This document shows positions 54,300 through 64,000 of a stretch of DNA of 64,000 nt, piece by piece; within the stretch, counting starts at the first letter, position 1, and every line of letters begins with the position of its first letter. The translations under genes and the position numbers were made by a program. A model generated the notes under the pieces. The model was not told the origin of the DNA. It was given only the letters and a program-made list of their open reading frames with translations, and did not search any database. The DNA is from Phytohabitans rumicis (lineage in GTDB: Bacteria; Actinomycetota; Actinomycetes; Mycobacteriales; Micromonosporaceae), in contig NZ_BLPG01000001.1 in NCBI RefSeq assembly GCF_011764445.1, forward strand, positions 1,116,001 to 1,180,000, in the 5' to 3' direction.

Positions 54300-55517
54300 A
54301 TGAGGAAATCTGACAGTCCACGGTGGAAGTTCGCGGCGGGCGCCATGACGCTGGTGACAGCGTTCGCTGCTGTCGCCGCTTGCGGGTCGGACGCCGACAA
54401 CAGTGCGGCGCCCCCAGCTGCCGGCCCGCACAGCATGCACGCGGGCGCGTCGTCGGCTCCACCGCAGTCGCTGCGCGCCGGCGAGCGGTTCCTGGACCTG
54501 AAGATGGCCGAGGCCTACACGCCTACGGCGCCGGAGGGCGGCGGCACGGACGAGTACCGGTGCCAGGTGATCGATCCGGGCCTGACCAAGACGGCGTTCG
54601 TGACCGGGACCCAATTCGCACCGGAGAACGTCGCCATCGCGCACCACGCCATCGTGTACGCGGTGCCGCCGGACCGCGCTGCCCTGGTGCGCAAGCAGGA
54701 CGCGATGACGCCCGGCCTCGGCTGGCAGTGTTTCGGCGGGACCGGCGTGCCCGGCGCCGACGTGGAGGGCGACGACCAGGGCGCGACGTGGGTGGACACC
54801 TGGGCGCCGGGCGCCACGGAGACGCTGCTCGACCAGGACATCGGCTTCAAGCTGGGGCCGGGCAGCCTGATTATCCTCCAGATCCACTACAACCTGCTCG
54901 CGACCGACGGCAAACCGGCCGGGTCGGACCGCTCGGCGGTGCGGCTGCGGCTGACGGACGGCACGCCCCAAACCCGGGAACTCGAAACGTGGTCGCTCGA
55001 CGCGCCGACCGACCTGCCCTGCGCCGCCGACGAGTCGGGTCCGCTCTGTGACCGGGCGGCCTCGATCGCGGACGTGACGAAGCGGTTCGGACCGGATGTC
55101 GGCGAGTCGGCGGACCGTCAGGTGGAGGAATGCAACCCGGGCGGCGTGCCGAAGCCCGGTAACATCCAGACCTGCGACCAGAAGGTGCCGGCGCCGATGA
55201 CGCTGTTCGCCGGTTTCGGCCACATGCACCTGCTCGGGCGGGCCATCAAGGTCGAACTCAACCCGGGCACGCCGAACGCCAAGGTCGTGCTCGACGTGCC
55301 GCAGTTCGACTTCGACAACCAGCGGCTGATGAAGTTGCCGTCGCCGGTGGAGATCGGTCCGGGGGACACGCTGCGGGTGACGTGTACGCACGACGCGAGG
55401 CTGCGCAGACAGCTGCCGCAGCTGAAGAAGCTGCCGCCCCGCTACGTGGTGTGGGGCGACGGCACCAGCGACGAGATGTGCACGGGCATCATGACGGTCT
55501 CCCCCCGCAAGTCCTGA
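54300..55517 (+). CDS. Lipoprotein with a PHM-like (copper, ascorbate-dependent) monooxygenase fold
   Basis: 405 residues. A lipobox (VAAC at about residues 25-28) suggests membrane anchoring outside the cell. Candidate copper ligands follow the order and spacing of peptidylglycine alpha-hydroxylating monooxygenase: His115-His116 (AHHAIVY) and His196 (QIHYN) for CuH, His308-X-His310 (GHMHLLGR) and Met393 (DEMCTG) for CuM. Bacterial members of this fold are largely uncharacterised. ATG 54300 lacks a good Shine-Dalgarno, so the start is fairly sure only from the signal. Divergent from MMPL (260 bp between). Confidence 0.85.
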   Translation: MRKSDSPRWKFAAGAMTLVTAFAAVAACGSDADNSAAPPAAGPHSMHAGASSAPPQSLRAGERFLDLKMAEAYTPTAPEGGGTDEYRCQVIDPGLTKTAFVTGTQFAPENVAIAHHAIVYAVPPDRAALVRKQDAMTPGLGWQCFGGTGVPGADVEGDDQGATWVDTWAPGATETLLDQDIGFKLGPGSLIILQIHYNLLATDGKPAGSDRSAVRLRLTDGTPQTRELETWSLDAPTDLPCAADESGPLCDRAASIADVTKRFGPDVGESADRQVEECNPGGVPKPGNIQTCDQKVPAPMTLFAGFGHMHLLGRAIKVELNPGTPNAKVVLDVPQFDFDNQRLMKLPSPVEIGPGDTLRVTCTHDARLRRQLPQLKKLPPRYVVWGDGTSDEMCTGIMTVSPRKS

Positions 55518-56750: not shown

Positions 56751-57247
56751 TCAGCGGAGCACGGCCAGCGACGTGCAGTAGTACGGCATCTCTTGGCCGA
56801 AGGGGTTGAGCAATACGGCGCGCGGCGGAAAGTCGCAGGTCAGTTCCAGCCGATACCGGGCGCCGGTACGGAACGACGTCGCCATGCGGTCGGGGTACTT
56901 GTGCCCCACTGGATGCGACCGGCGGCGACGCCGGCGGCGACCAGGTTGGCGGAGGCGTTACCAGCCCGCCGGCGGCCAAGGTCGAGGTTGTCCGCCGGTG
57001 TTCCGGTGTCGTCGGTGAACCCCTGGATCAGGACGGTGGCGGAGGGCGTAGCGGCCACGCTGGCGGCCGCGGCGGCGATCGCCGCCGCGCCCCCCGCCGG
57101 CACCACGTCGGAGCCGGTCACGAACTGGTCGACGGTGTGCTCTGACACCAGCACCTTGGCCGCCTGGCGGGCGTTGGACAGCACCGAGTCCGTCGGCGTG
57201 GGCCGGTCGCGGTCGAACACCAGATAGTAGGTCTCGAAGTCCTGCAC
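56751..57247 (-). CDS. Small OmpA-domain protein at the end of the lipid-synthase operon; one frame break
   Basis: About 165 residues if one base is restored at CCCC 56904-56907. The centre is an OmpA/MotB-like peptidoglycan-binding fold: FVTGSDVVPAGGAAAIAAAA, VLIQGFTDDTG, then LGRRRAGNASANLVAAGVAAGRI. After the join it continues KYPDRMATSFRTGARYRLEL, then FGQEMPYYCTSLAVLR-stop. No signal peptide is visible, and the start is uncertain: GTG 57247 has no Shine-Dalgarno, and the frame stays open upstream (ESCADAVRGPGSITR) towards the synthase stop 77 bases away. A role in lipid release or envelope placement is a guess from position only. Confidence 0.6.
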
Positions 57248-57323: not shown

Positions 57324-60300
57324 TCAGGGGTTGCCGGCGACCACCCGCACGCTGAACCGTTCGAGGCGGTAGATGCGGCGGCCGTCGACCCACAGCCAGG
57401 CGGTGGCCACGGCGGTCGTCCCGCGCAACTCGAGGACCTCCATCTCGATGGTGACCAGCCGGTCGCCGGGCACGATCTGGCCGCGGTAGGTCCACCGCAG
57501 CGACTCGTCCAGGGCGGTCGACTCGAAGCGGGGGTCGGGCAGGTCGGCGCCGATGCCGCGGTCGATGAGGTACCACTGCAGCAGTTGGCACATCGCCTCG
57601 ACCCCCAGCGAGCCGGGCATCACGGGGTCCTGGAAGAAGTGGGCCTTGAAGAACCACGCGCCCGGGTCGACGTCCATCTCGGCGCGGAGCCGGCCCAGGC
57701 CCGCCGGGCCGGCGTCGGGCCAGTAGCCGGTGATCCGGTCGAGCATCATCAGCATCGGTCCGGCAAGCCGGGGCCGACGGTCAGGGCGGTACAGCGGCGG
57801 CGTCGGCGAAGGGGCGCTTAGGCGTTCGCGTTCGGCGGGTGAGGCAGGCAGACCCGGTTGCGAAGCGAAGGCGGCCGTCGAGAAGTAGCCGAATACGGCG
57901 GTGCCGGTCAGTAGCGGCGCGCCGTCGGCGAAGCATTCGATCGCGAACGACTCGATGATCATCCCGTTGATGTGTGACACGGCGGTGAGTCGTGCCCTGG
58001 TGCGGATGACTCCGGTGGCCGCGGCCCGGATTTCGCGGAGCACGCGCAGGTCGCCGTCCAGGTTGCGGAACAGCAGCTCGGTGTCCATCTGGACGGGGCT
58101 ACCGACGTAGCAGCCAAGCCAGCCGCAGGGTTGCAGGGCGATCTCCATCAGGACCGCGGTGGGCATCGTGGGACTGCCGTTGCCGGCGAAGTACCACGCC
58201 TCGGCGGGCACGTCGTACTCGGCCTCCACAGTGGAGCCGACTGCCATGCCCTGATATGGGCCTTCCACGGCGGTGATGCGGGTCATGAAGTGGTACGGCG
58301 GTCCCGGCAGCCTTGGTCCCCGCCGTGGCCCGACGAACGGCGTGGCCATCGGCCCGAGCCCATCGGTGGGCCGGCCCCAGGCGCAGGCCAGCAGCGACGC
58401 GTATCCGAGGCGCAGCCCGCCGACCTCGGCGACGGGTTGAGGCTCGACGTGGCCGACGAGACCGCCGAGCCGCTCCAGCGGCAGGGTTTCGGCGGTGCGC
58501 TGGACCGCCGGCGGCCCGAGGTGTCGCCAGTGCTCCAGCGGCCAGTCCGGCGTCAGTTGCACCGCACAGTCGGCGACATGCAGCGCCTTGACGCCGTCGA
58601 CGGTGACCAGCACGTCGGCGATCACGGCGGGTATCGGGCCGGCCCGCACGCTGGACACGAAGACCTCGTAGACCAGGCGACGGCTGACCGGGGTGACCTG
58701 GCCACGGCAGCGCATCCGCGAGGCGCGCCCCGGCACCGGCTCGAACCGCCAGCCGTCGCGGCCGATGGTGTGTCCACTGGCCGCGAGGAAGAATGACACG
58801 GCCTGCAGGCAGCCTTCGGACATGAGTGTGCCGGGCATGCACGGATCGTTGGTGAAGTGGCCGTCGAAGTACCAGTCGTCGGGGCTGACCGAGGTCTCCG
58901 CACGCAGGTAGCCGCGACCCCAGGGGCCGCCCGTCGGGTCGAAGACGGGGACCTCGTCCAGCAGGCGCATGCGTCCGGACCCGATGCGAGGGCTGCGCAC
59001 GTCGGCGCGGGTGACCTCCCAGCCCGGGCCGAAGCAGGCATCGGGCCGGCCTTCGGTGAAGGCCAGGACCGCTGCGGTGTCGAATGATCCGGCGGTACCG
59101 CGAACAGCCGGCGGATCCGGCGGCACGCCCTTGGCAGGAGCGTCCACAGTGGGCTCCCATAGCACGCCGCCGGTGTTCGCCAGCTCCTCGTCGGAGAAGA
59201 ACCCGGCCTGGCCGTGGCGCACCGTCAGCACGAGTTCACCGGCGCTGCGGCAGTCGTATTCAAAAAAGAACAGCCGGGCCTTGCCGTGCACGACGTGGCC
59301 GATGATGCGGATCTCGTAGTCCAGGGTCGCACCGTGCGCGGGCGGGCTGGTGTGGAACGTGACCTCGCTGCCCAGCAGGCGGTAGACCCGCTCGCCGCGG
59401 TTGTGCAGGTCGGCGCCGAGCCAGCTGATCAGCAGGAGGTCCGCCTGGCCCGCCTCGACCAGCAGGCCAGCGGGCATACGGCCGGTGGCGTCGAGGTACC
59501 AGGCGTCGACGGTGACGTCGGTCTGGGTCCAGATCGTGCCGGTGCGCATGGAGCCGGGGACGGCGTCGATGCCGGTGACCCGGTCGGCGAGCAGCAGTGG
59601 TGGGCTGGGCATCCGAGTCTGGCGCGCATCGTCGTCCTGTACCGCGAACATCGGCCCGAACAGGTCGGAGATCCGGCCGACGGCGAGATGCTCGAGCTGC
59701 TGGCGATCAAAACGAGGACCAGGCTTCCGCGGTACCGCGGGTGCTGGTGCCGTCACGACGGACGCGCGCGGCCGGGTCAGTGTGCGCAGCGCCGCTGCCC
59801 GCGTTGCCATGAACTGGGCGTGGGCCTCGCCTTGTAGGCCAAGGTGTTCGTTGTGCGCGGCGGTGATCAGCGCCCGCCAGCTGGCGGCCACCGTAAGCGC
59901 CGTGGCCGGTTGCCGAGTCGGCGTCGGGACAAGCTCGGGTGCTCGTTCCATCACCGCGTACTCGATGGCGGGCACCGGCTCCGCAAGGCGAGCCGGCAGG
60001 TGGACGATCGCGCCGGGACGTGGCTCGGTCGGCGGCCCGAAGTACGCCGCGAGCGCGTCGACGCGAACCGCCGTGCCCGCGGCGGCGAGCTCGGCGACCA
60101 CAGTGGACAGCGGCCATAGCCCTTGGTCCTGCGGTCCGTCCAACGCGACCGCCAGGTGTTCCCGGTCGCCGAGGATGCGGCGGATCCAGCCGGTGCACTG
60201 CGCGCCCGGTCCGTGTTCGACGAACACCCGGACGCCGTCGTGCCAGGCGCGCTCGATCACGGCGGGGAAGTCGACGGGCGAGATCGCCTGCTCGGTGAGC

Positions 60301-63300
60301 GCGTCGGCGGCCGACTCTTCGGTCGGGTGGTACGGCTCGCCGGTAGCGCCACGGTAGAAGCGGATGCCCGGCACGGCCGTCGTCGGGCGCCGATGCAGGG
60401 CGTGCCAGCGGTCCCGGACCTCGGCGACTTCCGGCGCGTGGGCGACGAGGTCGTAGTTGATCAGTGTGAAGGCGCCGGGTTCGAGCCGCTTGACGAACTC
60501 CTCGCATGCCTGCCGCTCCCCGGCGATGGTGCAGGTGCCGGGAGCGCAGATGCCCGTCAGGTGTACAGCGGGCTCGTCTTCGACCAGCTCGCGCACCCGG
60601 TCCGCGTCGGCGGCGAGGACCACGCCAGCCCAGCGTTCGCCCGCGATGCCCCGCCGCGCCCAGTACCGCCGGACGGCGCGCAGCTCGCCACCCAGCTCTC
60701 GGGTGAACAGCTCGCTGGCGCGCGCGTCGGCGGCCATCGCGGGTGCGTCGTGCCAGACGCCCAGTGCCACCAGTGCGGCCGACTCCCCCGACGAGTAGCC
60801 GATGGCCGCCTGGGGTTCGACGCCGAGCACGTCGCGGCTGATCCGGGTATGCAGCCGGGCGAGGTAGCCGACGCCGAGGATCTGGTCGAGCGCGTCCTTC
60901 GGCCGCCCGTCGCCCCGGTGGGCCCAGGCCGCCAGGTCCGCGCCGGGCATCCCGGCCAGCGGCGCGAACGCGAGCATCAGGTCGGCGCCCATGCCGGCGT
61001 AGGCGGCGGAGCCCTTGGTGTAGACGAAGGCGGTCTCACCATCCAGCGGGGCAGCGCGGAAGGCGACACCGTCCGGGCGCGCCGCGTCCTCGGTGAGCCA
61101 CCGCCGGCTCGCGGCGATCTGGTCGGCCGCCGACGTGCGGGCGTCGGCGACGATGGCCAGCCGGGCCGGGCCGGCGGCGCCCTCCACACCGGCGGCGGCC
61201 GCCGCCAGGGCGCCGTCGCGGTCGGCGCCCGAGTACACCTGCACCTTGGGTGGTGCGGCCGGCGCCCACGCCGTGGCGTCGGCCGCGTGCAGCCGGATCC
61301 GGTTGGCGGCGGCGCCGAGCACCGGGGTGACGATGTCGGCGGTGGCGATGTCCGGCCGGGGCTCGGCGCGCTGCCCGCCGCGTGGTGCGCAGCGGTGGTG
61401 CAGGGCGAGTGCCGCGGCCGCCACGCCGAGCAGGCCGCGCGCCGCGTGCGGCGCGCCGAACACGTCGGCGGGGTCGAAGTCGACGGGCACCGTGGCGCGG
61501 TCGCCCACGACGAGGTCGGCCCGGGTGTCGTCGGGCGCCGGTTCGACGAGCGCGATCACCGGGTCGCCGTCGGCGCGGGCGTCGGCGAGCCGCTTGAGCA
61601 CCAGCACGACGGCCGCGTCGGCCGGCTCCGCCGACAGGCCGAGCGCGGCCGCGGCCGCGCGATGCACCGGCTCGTCGGACAGGTCGACGGCGCCGACCAG
61701 CGCCGCGTCGACTTCATGGGCGCGCAGCGCCCGGACAGCCAGGATCAGGGCGGTGGTCCCGGAGGCTTCTTCGGCGCAGACGGCGAATGCCGGACCGGCG
61801 AGGTCGAGCTGGGCACCGATGCGGTTGGCGGTGATGTTCGCCATGCTGCCCAGGACGCGGGCCGAGGTCAGCCGCGGGCTGAACGTCTCCCCCGCGCCGG
61901 CGAGCCCGTGCCGTGCGGGCCAGGCGTCCAGCCGCTGCTGGGCGTGGATGCGGGCGGTTTCCGGGTCGGTGCCCATCCCGACCAGGACTGCGGTGCGCTC
62001 CGGCGGCAGCCGGAGGCCGCTCGCCGCCTCGCGCGCCGCTTCCAGGACGAGCAGTTGCTGGCCGAGCGTCTCCTCAAGGTCACGCGGCGGGAACCGCAGG
62101 CCGGTCAGGGCGACCTCGATGTCGTACCGCATCGGCTTCTGGGTCTTGCCGGTCAGGAGGGCATCGCGAAACGTGTCGACGCCCCCGGCCGCGGTCCTGG
62201 TGCCGAGCGCGACCACGGCGATCTCGTCGCGCGGCGGCGGCAGGTCGCGTGGCACCGCGATGCTGGACGTGGCCGGATCTCCGTCGAATGCCTCGACGAT
62301 CAGGTGGGCGTTGTTGCCGCCGAATCCGAAGGCGCTGATCGCTGCCCGCCGACGTCCCGGCCACGGCTCGTTGGCCCGCAGCAGCCGCAGGGGGCCGGTG
62401 GACAGCTCGGCGATCGGTTCCTCGGCGCCGGCCGTGGCAGGCCGCACTCCGGTCTCGATGGCGCCAAGCAGCTTGAGGAGGCCGGCGGCGCCGGAGGCGG
62501 TGAGCAGATGGCCGACGTTCGACTTGGCGGAGCCGACGGCCAGGCCGTCGTGCCCGGCGAAGAACCGGGCGGTCGCCCTCGCCTCGACGGCGTCGCCGAC
62601 CGGGGTGCCGGTGGCATGACACTCCAGCAGGGACACGGTCTTCAGACCGAAGCCCGCTTGCCGGTAGGCCGCGTGCATCGCCCGGATCTGGCCGTCCTCG
62701 GCGGGCGCGAGGAACCCGCCGGTGCGCCCGTCGTTGGACAGGCCGACCCCGCGGATGACGCCGTGGATGGGCAGACGCGCGTCGATGGCGTCGCGGAGCC
62801 GCATGAGCGCCACGATCGCCGCCCCCTCGGCGGGCACGAGACCGTCGGCCCGGCGGTGGAACGGCCGGCTGCGCCCGGTGGGGCTCAGCCCGCCCAGCGC
62901 GGCGAAGCCGAGATTGATGATGAGCCCGTCGCAGCCGGCGACGGCACCGGCGAGCATCAGGTCCGCGGTGCCGTCGTGCAGCCGGTCGCTCGCGATCTTG
63001 ATGGCGTACAGCGCGGACGCGCAGGCGGCCTCCACCGTGACGGCGCCCGCGTCCAGGCCCAGTGCCCGCGCGGCGGTGTGCGCCGGCAGCCCGGAACAGA
63101 ACCGCGAGCGGGCGTCCACACCCGGCATCGGGGGCACGGTGGCGAGCAGGTCGGGGCGGTCGGCCAGCCAGACCCGCTCGGCGTAGGCGGCCAGTCCGCG
63201 GCTGGGAAACCCGAGACTGCCCAGGATCAGCCCGGCTCGCGCGGGCGGCACGGCGCGGCCCGCCTCGCACAGCGCCGACCGGGCCGCATGCAAGACCCAG

Positions 63301-63584
63301 CGCAGAGCCGGGTCGTAGGCGACGACCTCTTCGGCGTCGATGCGGAAGCCGGAGGGGTCGAAGACGTCGTCGAAGCCGGTCACCGCCCCAGCCGTCGCGG
63401 GCCGGCCGGCGACGGCCGGGGCGCCCGGTGGCATCCGCCAGTCCTCGGGCCGCACCGTGCGCAGGCTGACCCGGCCGTGCGCGATGTTGTCCCAGAACTG
63501 GCCGGGATCCAACGCGCCGGGCAGCACACAACCGCGACCGACGATCGCGACCGGCTCGAATCCCGCGGCGTCGAACGCTGTCAT
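57324..63584 (-). CDS. PUFA-synthase-like polyketide synthase, KS-CLF-AT-(DH'-DH)x2
   Basis: 2,086 residues. KS (about 10-430) with Cys188, His323 and His359 (VEAACASAL, ECHATGT, SNVGHLL). A second KS-like domain (about 450-780) has Glu at the catalytic Cys (FAVCAEEASGTT), so it is a chain-length-factor type. AT (about 845-1130) with Ser931 in GYSSGES. Two FabA-type double-hotdog dehydratases follow: a His-less half (AWYLDATGRMP, AWYFAGNGSPT) then an active-looking half with His1576 (FDGHFTNDPCMPG) and His1982 (FKAHFFQDPVMPG). No ACP or KR. This resembles PfaC plus an AT. ATG 63584 overlaps the upstream gene by four bases. Confidence 0.9.
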   Translation of the reverse strand: MTAFDAAGFEPVAIVGRGCVLPGALDPGQFWDNIAHGRVSLRTVRPEDWRMPPGAPAVAGRPATAGAVTGFDDVFDPSGFRIDAEEVVAYDPALRWVLHAARSALCEAGRAVPPARAGLILGSLGFPSRGLAAYAERVWLADRPDLLATVPPMPGVDARSRFCSGLPAHTAARALGLDAGAVTVEAACASALYAIKIASDRLHDGTADLMLAGAVAGCDGLIINLGFAALGGLSPTGRSRPFHRRADGLVPAEGAAIVALMRLRDAIDARLPIHGVIRGVGLSNDGRTGGFLAPAEDGQIRAMHAAYRQAGFGLKTVSLLECHATGTPVGDAVEARATARFFAGHDGLAVGSAKSNVGHLLTASGAAGLLKLLGAIETGVRPATAGAEEPIAELSTGPLRLLRANEPWPGRRRAAISAFGFGGNNAHLIVEAFDGDPATSSIAVPRDLPPPRDEIAVVALGTRTAAGGVDTFRDALLTGKTQKPMRYDIEVALTGLRFPPRDLEETLGQQLLVLEAAREAASGLRLPPERTAVLVGMGTDPETARIHAQQRLDAWPARHGLAGAGETFSPRLTSARVLGSMANITANRIGAQLDLAGPAFAVCAEEASGTTALILAVRALRAHEVDAALVGAVDLSDEPVHRAAAAALGLSAEPADAAVVLVLKRLADARADGDPVIALVEPAPDDTRADLVVGDRATVPVDFDPADVFGAPHAARGLLGVAAAALALHHRCAPRGGQRAEPRPDIATADIVTPVLGAAANRIRLHAADATAWAPAAPPKVQVYSGADRDGALAAAAAGVEGAAGPARLAIVADARTSAADQIAASRRWLTEDAARPDGVAFRAAPLDGETAFVYTKGSAAYAGMGADLMLAFAPLAGMPGADLAAWAHRGDGRPKDALDQILGVGYLARLHTRISRDVLGVEPQAAIGYSSGESAALVALGVWHDAPAMAADARASELFTRELGGELRAVRRYWARRGIAGERWAGVVLAADADRVRELVEDEPAVHLTGICAPGTCTIAGERQACEEFVKRLEPGAFTLINYDLVAHAPEVAEVRDRWHALHRRPTTAVPGIRFYRGATGEPYHPTEESAADALTEQAISPVDFPAVIERAWHDGVRVFVEHGPGAQCTGWIRRILGDREHLAVALDGPQDQGLWPLSTVVAELAAAGTAVRVDALAAYFGPPTEPRPGAIVHLPARLAEPVPAIEYAVMERAPELVPTPTRQPATALTVAASWRALITAAHNEHLGLQGEAHAQFMATRAAALRTLTRPRASVVTAPAPAVPRKPGPRFDRQQLEHLAVGRISDLFGPMFAVQDDDARQTRMPSPPLLLADRVTGIDAVPGSMRTGTIWTQTDVTVDAWYLDATGRMPAGLLVEAGQADLLLISWLGADLHNRGERVYRLLGSEVTFHTSPPAHGATLDYEIRIIGHVVHGKARLFFFEYDCRSAGELVLTVRHGQAGFFSDEELANTGGVLWEPTVDAPAKGVPPDPPAVRGTAGSFDTAAVLAFTEGRPDACFGPGWEVTRADVRSPRIGSGRMRLLDEVPVFDPTGGPWGRGYLRAETSVSPDDWYFDGHFTNDPCMPGTLMSEGCLQAVSFFLAASGHTIGRDGWRFEPVPGRASRMRCRGQVTPVSRRLVYEVFVSSVRAGPIPAVIADVLVTVDGVKALHVADCAVQLTPDWPLEHWRHLGPPAVQRTAETLPLERLGGLVGHVEPQPVAEVGGLRLGYASLLACAWGRPTDGLGPMATPFVGPRRGPRLPGPPYHFMTRITAVEGPYQGMAVGSTVEAEYDVPAEAWYFAGNGSPTMPTAVLMEIALQPCGWLGCYVGSPVQMDTELLFRNLDGDLRVLREIRAAATGVIRTRARLTAVSHINGMIIESFAIECFADGAPLLTGTAVFGYFSTAAFASQPGLPASPAERERLSAPSPTPPLYRPDRRPRLAGPMLMMLDRITGYWPDAGPAGLGRLRAEMDVDPGAWFFKAHFFQDPVMPGSLGVEAMCQLLQWYLIDRGIGADLPDPRFESTALDESLRWTYRGQIVPGDRLVTIEMEVLELRGTTAVATAWLWVDGRRIYRLERFSVRVVAGNP

Positions 63585-64000
63585 GCGGGAGTGGCCGCAC
63601 TGGTGCTGAGCGCGGATGGCATGTCGGGCCGGCGGATCAGGCTGACACCGAACAGCTCCACCCGCGGCGCTCCGTCCGCGTCGAGCAGGGCGATGTCGCA
63701 CCGCATCTGTCCATCTGCGACGGTGCCGGCTCGGACGAGGCAGCGCAGCGGACCTGGCGCCGGACCGGTGCGGTGCACGCGCAGCGCGTCCACGCCCATC
63801 GGCAGCGTCGCGTCGCCGACCGCATAGCTCGCCCATAGCACCGCTGTTTGCAGAGCGCCGTCGACGGCGGCCGGATCCGTCCACCATGGACCCCCGGGCC
63901 AACCCGCGTCGCGCAGGCCGCGGACGTGCGCGTCGGCGCCGTCCTCGGACAGCGCGTCGAGGCTGCTCAGCGTCTGGAATGCCGGTCCGTGGAAGAGTAC
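63581..64000 (-). CDS. C-terminal end of a modular synthase, polyketide dehydratase domain (PfaA-like?)
   Basis: The last 139 residues of a gene that runs off the right edge. VLFHGPAFQTLSSL at the start and DPAAVDGALQTAVLWASYA are the C-terminal hotdog of a PKS-type dehydratase (the DxxxQ/H Asp is present), ending LFGVSLIRRPDMPSALSTSAATPA. In PUFA synthases PfaA (KS-MAT-ACPs-KR-DH) ends this way, so the missing ACP and KR domains are probably just outside the window. Its stop overlaps the next start (ATGA). Confidence 0.85.
   Translation of the reverse strand, partial: VLFHGPAFQTLSSLDALSEDGADAHVRGLRDAGWPGGPWWTDPAAVDGALQTAVLWASYAVGDATLPMGVDALRVHRTGPAPGPLRCLVRAGTVADGQMRCDIALLDADGAPRVELFGVSLIRRPDMPSALSTSAATPA

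Follow-up and report, generated by a model that had tools for sequence, protein, structure and literature searches.

A probable Pfa3-type subunit of a three-gene Pfa secondary-lipid synthase in Phytohabitans rumicis

The last part of a 64,000-nucleotide stretch of the Phytohabitans rumicis genome (the window, G000:C1:1116001-1180000 of a 10.7 Mb assembly in three contigs) holds a gene, pfa3, that had been annotated from its letters as a PUFA or secondary-lipid synthase with an unusual KS-CLF-AT-(DH'-DH)x2 layout. This raises the question of which synthase the gene belongs to, whether that synthase looks able to work and whether its layout is in fact unusual. We are highly confident that the product is Pfa3 (a pfaBC fusion), the third subunit of an iterative type I synthase of the Pfa or "secondary lipid" class that is encoded by three genes.

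Relatives were collected by an alignment scan of the DH region in named genomes. At least 505 relatives were found among 588 candidate stretches and the best 80 were kept, a sample that leans to near kin. Together with the window protein and seven further relatives, these make up the 88 ORFs that were read, and the domain counts given below use profiles built from this same 88-ORF set.

Domain organization of pfa3

The ORF at 57324..63902, on the minus strand, opens at a TTG at 63902. The likely start of pfa3 is the ATG at 63584, because the KS begins directly after it and its ATGA overlaps the TGA of the upstream gene. This start makes the gene 57324-63584 (-), and window positions 63581-64000 would therefore be part of the upstream gene. 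The product is a Pfa3/pfaBC-type protein of 2,086 aa with the order KS-CLF-AT-DH'-DH-DH'-DH, as read from the ORF, its start, Pfam and the order in relatives. Pfam found PF00109 in two stretches, PF02801, and a FabA-like DH with 296.1 bits in three stretches. In profile order, the AT precedes the dehydratases and nothing follows DH2, whose match stops 3 residues before the end of the protein, leaving it without a C-terminal AGPAT. Pfam, the alignment to PDB 6RIW and a structure model (mean pLDDT 93.1) agree with the initial annotation that KS, CLF, AT and four hotdog halves stand in one chain.

The KS (62265..63560, minus strand, as are all domains of the gene) was recognized by PF00109/PF02801, its match to 6RIW and its residues; Cys188 and both His are kept. 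The Cys is conserved in all 63 rows with a letter at that position (best 80 of at least 505 relatives plus eight). The CLF (61080..62219) has no Pfam name here, and its assignment comes from a second KS fold aligned to 6RIW. This structure, listed as ORF10 and presumably the Moritella marina PfaC KS-CLF, is the top match of the KS-CLF region; it has both folds and carries Glu-Glu at the same active-site turn of the CLF. The Glu that had been noted in place of the catalytic Cys is indeed present (Glu606), but it is no oddity: of the 68 rows with a letter here (best 80 of at least 505 relatives plus eight), 60 have Glu, 5 Gln, 2 Ala and 1 Leu.

The AT (60030..61049) is PfaB-like, with a GYSSGE motif holding Ser931. 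Both models that match it do so below their cut-offs: PF00698 (Acyl_transf_1) gave 32.5 bits against 32.7, and TIGR02816 gave 67.8 against 144.3. The GYS motif and the His are both present. Among rows of the same 88-ORF set (best 80 of at least 505 relatives plus eight), the Ser is kept in 40/43 (Cys in the other 3), the His in 43/43, and the residue before the Ser is Tyr in 33/43, Phe in 6 and Leu in 4. An Arg at about the place that is typical of malonyl-specific ATs is found in the window AT and in 13/43 rows in that column. PfaB of Moritella and Shewanella is described as transferring long acyl chains and setting the final product, and the Tyr beside the Ser as conserved in bacterial PfaB and critical in Moritella (PMC12895367). 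By analogy with this long-chain transfer and this Tyr, the AT of Pfa3 more likely transfers acyl chains at a late stage than loads malonyl units.

The model of the dehydratase region covers the C-terminal 783 residues, was made with an alignment of 60 rows and shows four hotdog units in succession (mean pLDDT as above, pTM 0.93). The best PDB matches by Foldseek were 2cf2 (mammalian FAS architecture) and then FabA, which is the best single-domain structural match of the hotdogs. The first pair consists of the pseudo-dehydratase DH'1 (59085..59687) and the FabA-like dehydratase DH1 (58515..59057, His1576), and the second of DH'2 (57795..58382) and DH2 (57327..57782, His1982). DH1 and DH2 match PF07977; all four assignments also draw on residue columns and the model. 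As had been annotated, each dehydratase of the window protein keeps its His in one half only; both DH' domains have no His at the corresponding position and keep the Glu.

These residues are widely shared in the best 80 of at least 505 relatives plus eight (three ORFs, L026, L039 and L082, each without one of the four DH domains, are absent from the counts). The catalytic His is kept in 84/85 rows for DH1 and 85/85 for DH2, and Glu occupies the place of a FabA residue that we take to be Asp84 in all 83 DH'1 rows with a letter and in 85/85 DH'2 rows. Because of this pattern, the data suit a single composite FabA-type site per DH'-DH pair, to which the DH would give the His and the DH' the Glu. 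Counting against a clean rule, DH'1 has a His near the lost catalytic position in 39/85 rows (for example L024), where the window protein has Ala. Four contiguous hotdogs in the order DH'-DH-DH'-DH are already published for the PfaC family (PMC4882568). The four hotdogs, like the Glu in the CLF, were therefore rejected as an oddity, both being the norm.

The cluster, its proposed working and its integrity

Most of the cluster lies outside the window. The initial annotation had proposed to extend the contig in search of ACP, KR and enoyl reductase genes, and these are present next to pfa3 in a cluster of three genes: a PfaD-family enoyl reductase, a PfaA-like gene and then pfa3. Pfa1, the reductase (G000:C1:1185458-1187104, upstream of the PfaA-like gene), scored 623 bits with the PfaD model TIGR02814 (NCBIfam cut-off 449.25). 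The PfaA-like gene, pfa2 (G000:C1:1179581-1185444, minus strand), reaches into the window with its 3' end (63581..64000). Its domains are KS-MAT-ACP-KR-PKS-type DH, and the PKS-type DH that had been noted at the end of the upstream gene was recovered there (PF14765, 51.4 bits). The gene is frameshifted; its N-terminal frame gave 1123.8 bits with the PfaA model TIGR02813 (NCBIfam cut-off 1010.1). Pfam, a family profile and the motif all count one ACP in Pfa2. A separate PfaB is absent, the AT being fused inside Pfa3.

A search of the genome with PF01648 found no PPTase in or near the cluster. Its three matches, at C1:1.80, 3.62 and 5.95 Mb, are candidate partners for the ACP of Pfa2, and the nearest is about 610 kb away. 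In L010, a stretch chosen by guess as part of a PPTase locus matched nothing in Pfam. Fifteen neighboring ORFs were scanned with Pfam, and none of them looks like a tailoring or chain-releasing enzyme. A RecD2 helicase lies upstream; downstream are a short ORF with an OmpA domain and a response regulator of the LuxR type. Others encode an MMPL transporter, a two-component pair, an AAA ATPase, an RHS-repeat protein, a subtilase, a regulator of the AraC type and, some 11 kb off, a member of the epimerase family, and two ORFs have no Pfam match. Few gene families around 24 pfa loci are common to the surroundings of the window: regulators (L023, L029, L070), the MMPL transporter (L025) and RecD2 (L041).

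Two minor observations concern this neighborhood. The OmpA-family domain (38.8 bits) lies in a short ORF at window 56843-57247 (-), on the same strand and directly 3' of pfa3. At window 54300-55514 (+), weak copper type II monooxygenase domains were matched with 29.4 and 25.6 bits, the second below its cut-off.

From the domains we infer an active synthase that would work as follows. A PPTase encoded elsewhere would charge the ACP, and Pfa2 would load malonyl units on this single carrier and carry out condensation, ketoreduction and conventional dehydration. Pfa3 would supply a second condensing pair (KS-CLF), its two FabA-like dehydratase/isomerase pseudodimers could place cis double bonds, and Pfa1 would act as the enoyl reductase. 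Once complete, the long chain could be transferred by the PfaB-like AT to CoA or to a different carrier. The PfaA and PfaD models over their cut-offs, the 6RIW match, the FabA-like dehydratases, the conserved residues, the tree described below and the three PPTase-family matches favor a synthase of this kind. Myxobacterial synthases with a Pfa3 of the order KS-CLF-AT-DH-DH are described as making PUFAs in Yarrowia (PMC6731297). Counting against it are the single ACP, the lack of an AGPAT and of a nearby release gene, the AT scores below cut-off, the frameshift in pfa2 and the lack of a named product for the clade among the papers listed. On balance, the assignment to the PUFA/secondary-lipid class held up with the PfaA and PfaD models and the pairing of KS-CLF with FabA-like DH-DH. 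The cluster is a complete-looking Pfa secondary-lipid synthase, apparently made to function as the three-gene synthases of myxobacteria do, minus the AGPAT.

It is conceivable, if somewhat doubtful, that such a synthase serves not membrane lipids but a specialized lipopeptide or polyketide, with the AT or a fatty-acyl-AMP ligase delivering its chain to an NRPS line. In two relatives, AMP-binding, ACP and condensation domains are combined in a protein encoded near pfa3 (L022:16278-19676 and L050:10386-13820), and AMP-binding ligases occur in L041 and L104. Published hybrid clusters join PUFA-synthase-like genes with PKS and NRPS genes, Mycobacteriales being among their hosts (PMC13291983). The presence of one ACP would fit a low flux. 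Against this, no ligase or NRPS gene is among the neighboring ORFs scanned at the window cluster, and the C-terminal 641 of the 1,133 aa of the L022 protein, used as a query, found two weak matches in the genome (29 and 31% identity).

The frameshift in pfa2 bears on whether the cluster works at all. The reading frame changes between the KR and the PKS-type DH (ORFs P0001 and P0005, in different frames), which would suit a decayed, non-functional cluster whose genes are relics. The DH region was also matched in none of the five other genomes of the genus that were sampled. However, pfa1 and pfa3 each read through in one open frame, the catalytic residues of pfa3 are kept, and KR and PKS-type DH stand in one frame in 14 clade relatives (not in L032 and L047). 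Moreover, the essential rpoC is broken near model residues 539/546 and so occupies two open frames (G000:C1:3694907-3698625), and RecD2 is in three pieces (G000:C1:1187333-1188957). Since these genes are split too, the assembly probably contains indel errors, with the pfa2 frameshift among them, and we consider decay improbable. The same splits bear on the reading of other broken genes in the window.

Carrier proteins and the actinobacterial clade

A tree was built from 85 of the 88 ORFs, leaving out the three that lack a DH domain. It is a quick tree made without a mixture model, in which two long rows meet (L025 and L027). The window protein falls in an actinobacterial clade of 19 rows (SH-aLRT 99), with myxobacterial rows among the nearest neighbors; the closeness of myxobacterial to actinobacterial genes is also reported in PMC8436480. 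The nearest row among the best 80 of at least 505 relatives is Actinocrispum wychmicini L028 (NZ_SLWS01000007.1), with 82% identity over the DH region. It shares the Pfa3 architecture and the one ACP in Pfa2 but differs in having Pfa2 in one frame. The protein of G100, a genome of the same order, groups with Mycobacterium rows.

Fifteen of the 19 clade proteins end after DH2. Pfa2 could be read from MAT to KR in 12 of these (not in L021, L029 and L063), and all 12 have one ACP; the counts use a per-domain E-value limit, with which a diverged ACP could be missed. The four clade rows with a C-terminal extension have two ACPs (L041), one (L104) and, in partly readable genes, three (L032) and one (L047). 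Outside the clade, L061 and L070 lack an AGPAT and have three ACPs each. Among AGPAT-type rows readable from MAT to KR, one ACP is found in 6/25 (best 80 of at least 505 relatives plus eight). Because the rows share ancestry, the link between one ACP and no AGPAT is not a statistical result. The number of ACPs is given as two to over ten in one review (PMC4882568) and as typically 5-9 elsewhere (PMC12895367). The single ACP and the absence of a fused AGPAT are less usual traits, and both recur in one actinobacterial clade.

The distribution of the cluster is patchy. The DH region was matched in 8 of 101 genomes and, in a phylum sample, in 8 of 396, the window genome being included in each count. 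Among the papers listed, none names a product for one-ACP or actinobacterial PUFA synthases, or for the clade, in keeping with the initial description of this class as mostly orphans. For Kutzneria albida, three genes similar to omega-3 PUFA synthases are mentioned, and the passage of PMC4210621 that describes them gives no product.

It is conceivable, though less likely than not, that the single-ACP, AGPAT-less clade is a functionally distinct branch of Pfa synthases. Its AT might hand a long unsaturated chain not to a glycerolipid but to a separate acceptor, which could be CoA, a free-standing ACP or a ligase/NRPS line of the kind seen near pfa3 in L022 and L050, and the outcome might be a specialized lipid instead of a membrane PUFA. 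If active, the P. rumicis cluster would extend the Pfa synthases by a compact member with three genes and one ACP. It would then offer a natural test of two points: the need for tandem ACPs, and the ability of a PfaB-type AT to end chain growth by itself when no AGPAT is fused. The value of pfa3 is as a comparison case.

The layout among known Pfa synthases

The AT lies between CLF and DH in 35 of the 63 ORFs that hold KS, CLF and DH2 (best 80 of at least 505 relatives plus eight). Fifteen of these 35 have an AGPAT-type profile and 20 do not; AGPAT and PSDH are our labels for profiles cut from L024. The window protein is one of 17/63 ORFs, from the same best 80 of at least 505 plus eight, that end 15 residues or fewer after the DH2 match. 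The order KS-CLF-AT-DH2 is that of pfaBC in Types C and D of Shulse and Allen (PMC3098273), and the AT stands mid-Pfa3 in Aetherobacter (PMC4882568) and Minicystis (PMC8436480, PMC6731297). Because of the homologue counts, the published pfaBC fusions and the myxobacterial Pfa3 proteins, we judge the layout to be ordinary, and the position of the AT was rejected as an odd feature. On its own terms, the initial annotation is thus partly refuted: the architecture is common and, in myxobacteria, characterized, and no PPTase is nearby, although the ACP and enoyl reductase genes are present. With the DH and AT layout and the Glu in the CLF known already, the gene is an ordinary orphan member of its family.

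A close published likeness is to the Pfa1-2-3 sets of Aetherobacter and Minicystis, which share the order of an enoyl reductase, a PfaA-like protein with a PKS-type DH and a Pfa3 with KS-CLF-AT-DH-DH (PMC6731297, PMC4882568, PMC8436480). In Aetherobacter, the PPTase is likewise described at another locus. The sets differ in that the myxobacterial Pfa3 ends in an AGPAT, which the window protein lacks, and in the one ACP found here; the Pfa3 of Minicystis also has a further PKS-type DH that is missing from pfa3.

Type L of Shulse and Allen (PMC3098273) has pfaD first and was described from Streptomyces coelicolor, Nakamurella and Sorangium, among others. The P. rumicis cluster resembles it in the 5' pfaD homologue, the fused pfaBC, the actinobacterial and myxobacterial hosts and the uncharacterized product. 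Type L is printed as KS-CLF-DH2-AT, however, and since the AT here precedes the dehydratases, the cluster is not strictly Type L as printed. Aetherobacter, with its AT in the middle, is counted as Type L by PMC4882568. Types C and D share the pfaBC order, but Type D has a split pfaA and ACP5, and Type C has pfaD at the 3' end (PMC3098273). Nor is this a canonical marine PUFA synthase: Types A and B have tandem ACPs and a separate PfaB, and the cluster here has neither. In Moritella, the AT sits on a protein of its own, PfaB (PMC12895367).

It is very improbable that the protein represents a novel sort of PUFA synthase in which the layout of dehydratases and AT is new: the single ACP and missing AGPAT do set it apart from the published Aetherobacter and Minicystis sets, but the new layout is refuted by the homologue counts, Types C and D and the DH' pseudo-domains already in print.

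Some observations concern the ends of the relatives' Pfa3 proteins. In a review, the AGPAT domain is said to occur only in the myxobacterial Type L cluster (PMC4882568). Our AGPAT-type profile also matches non-myxobacterial Pfa3 proteins, for example in L073 and L079 (Paenibacillus) and L085 (Mycobacterium). When checked with Pfam, the end of L042 matched the acyltransferase PF01553 with 40 bits, and that of L024 gave no acyltransferase and a PKS-DH match below cut-off. In L086 and L090, both from Actinomycetes MAGs, the AGPAT-type and PKS-DH-type profiles after DH2 stand in reverse order compared to the other rows in which both occur.
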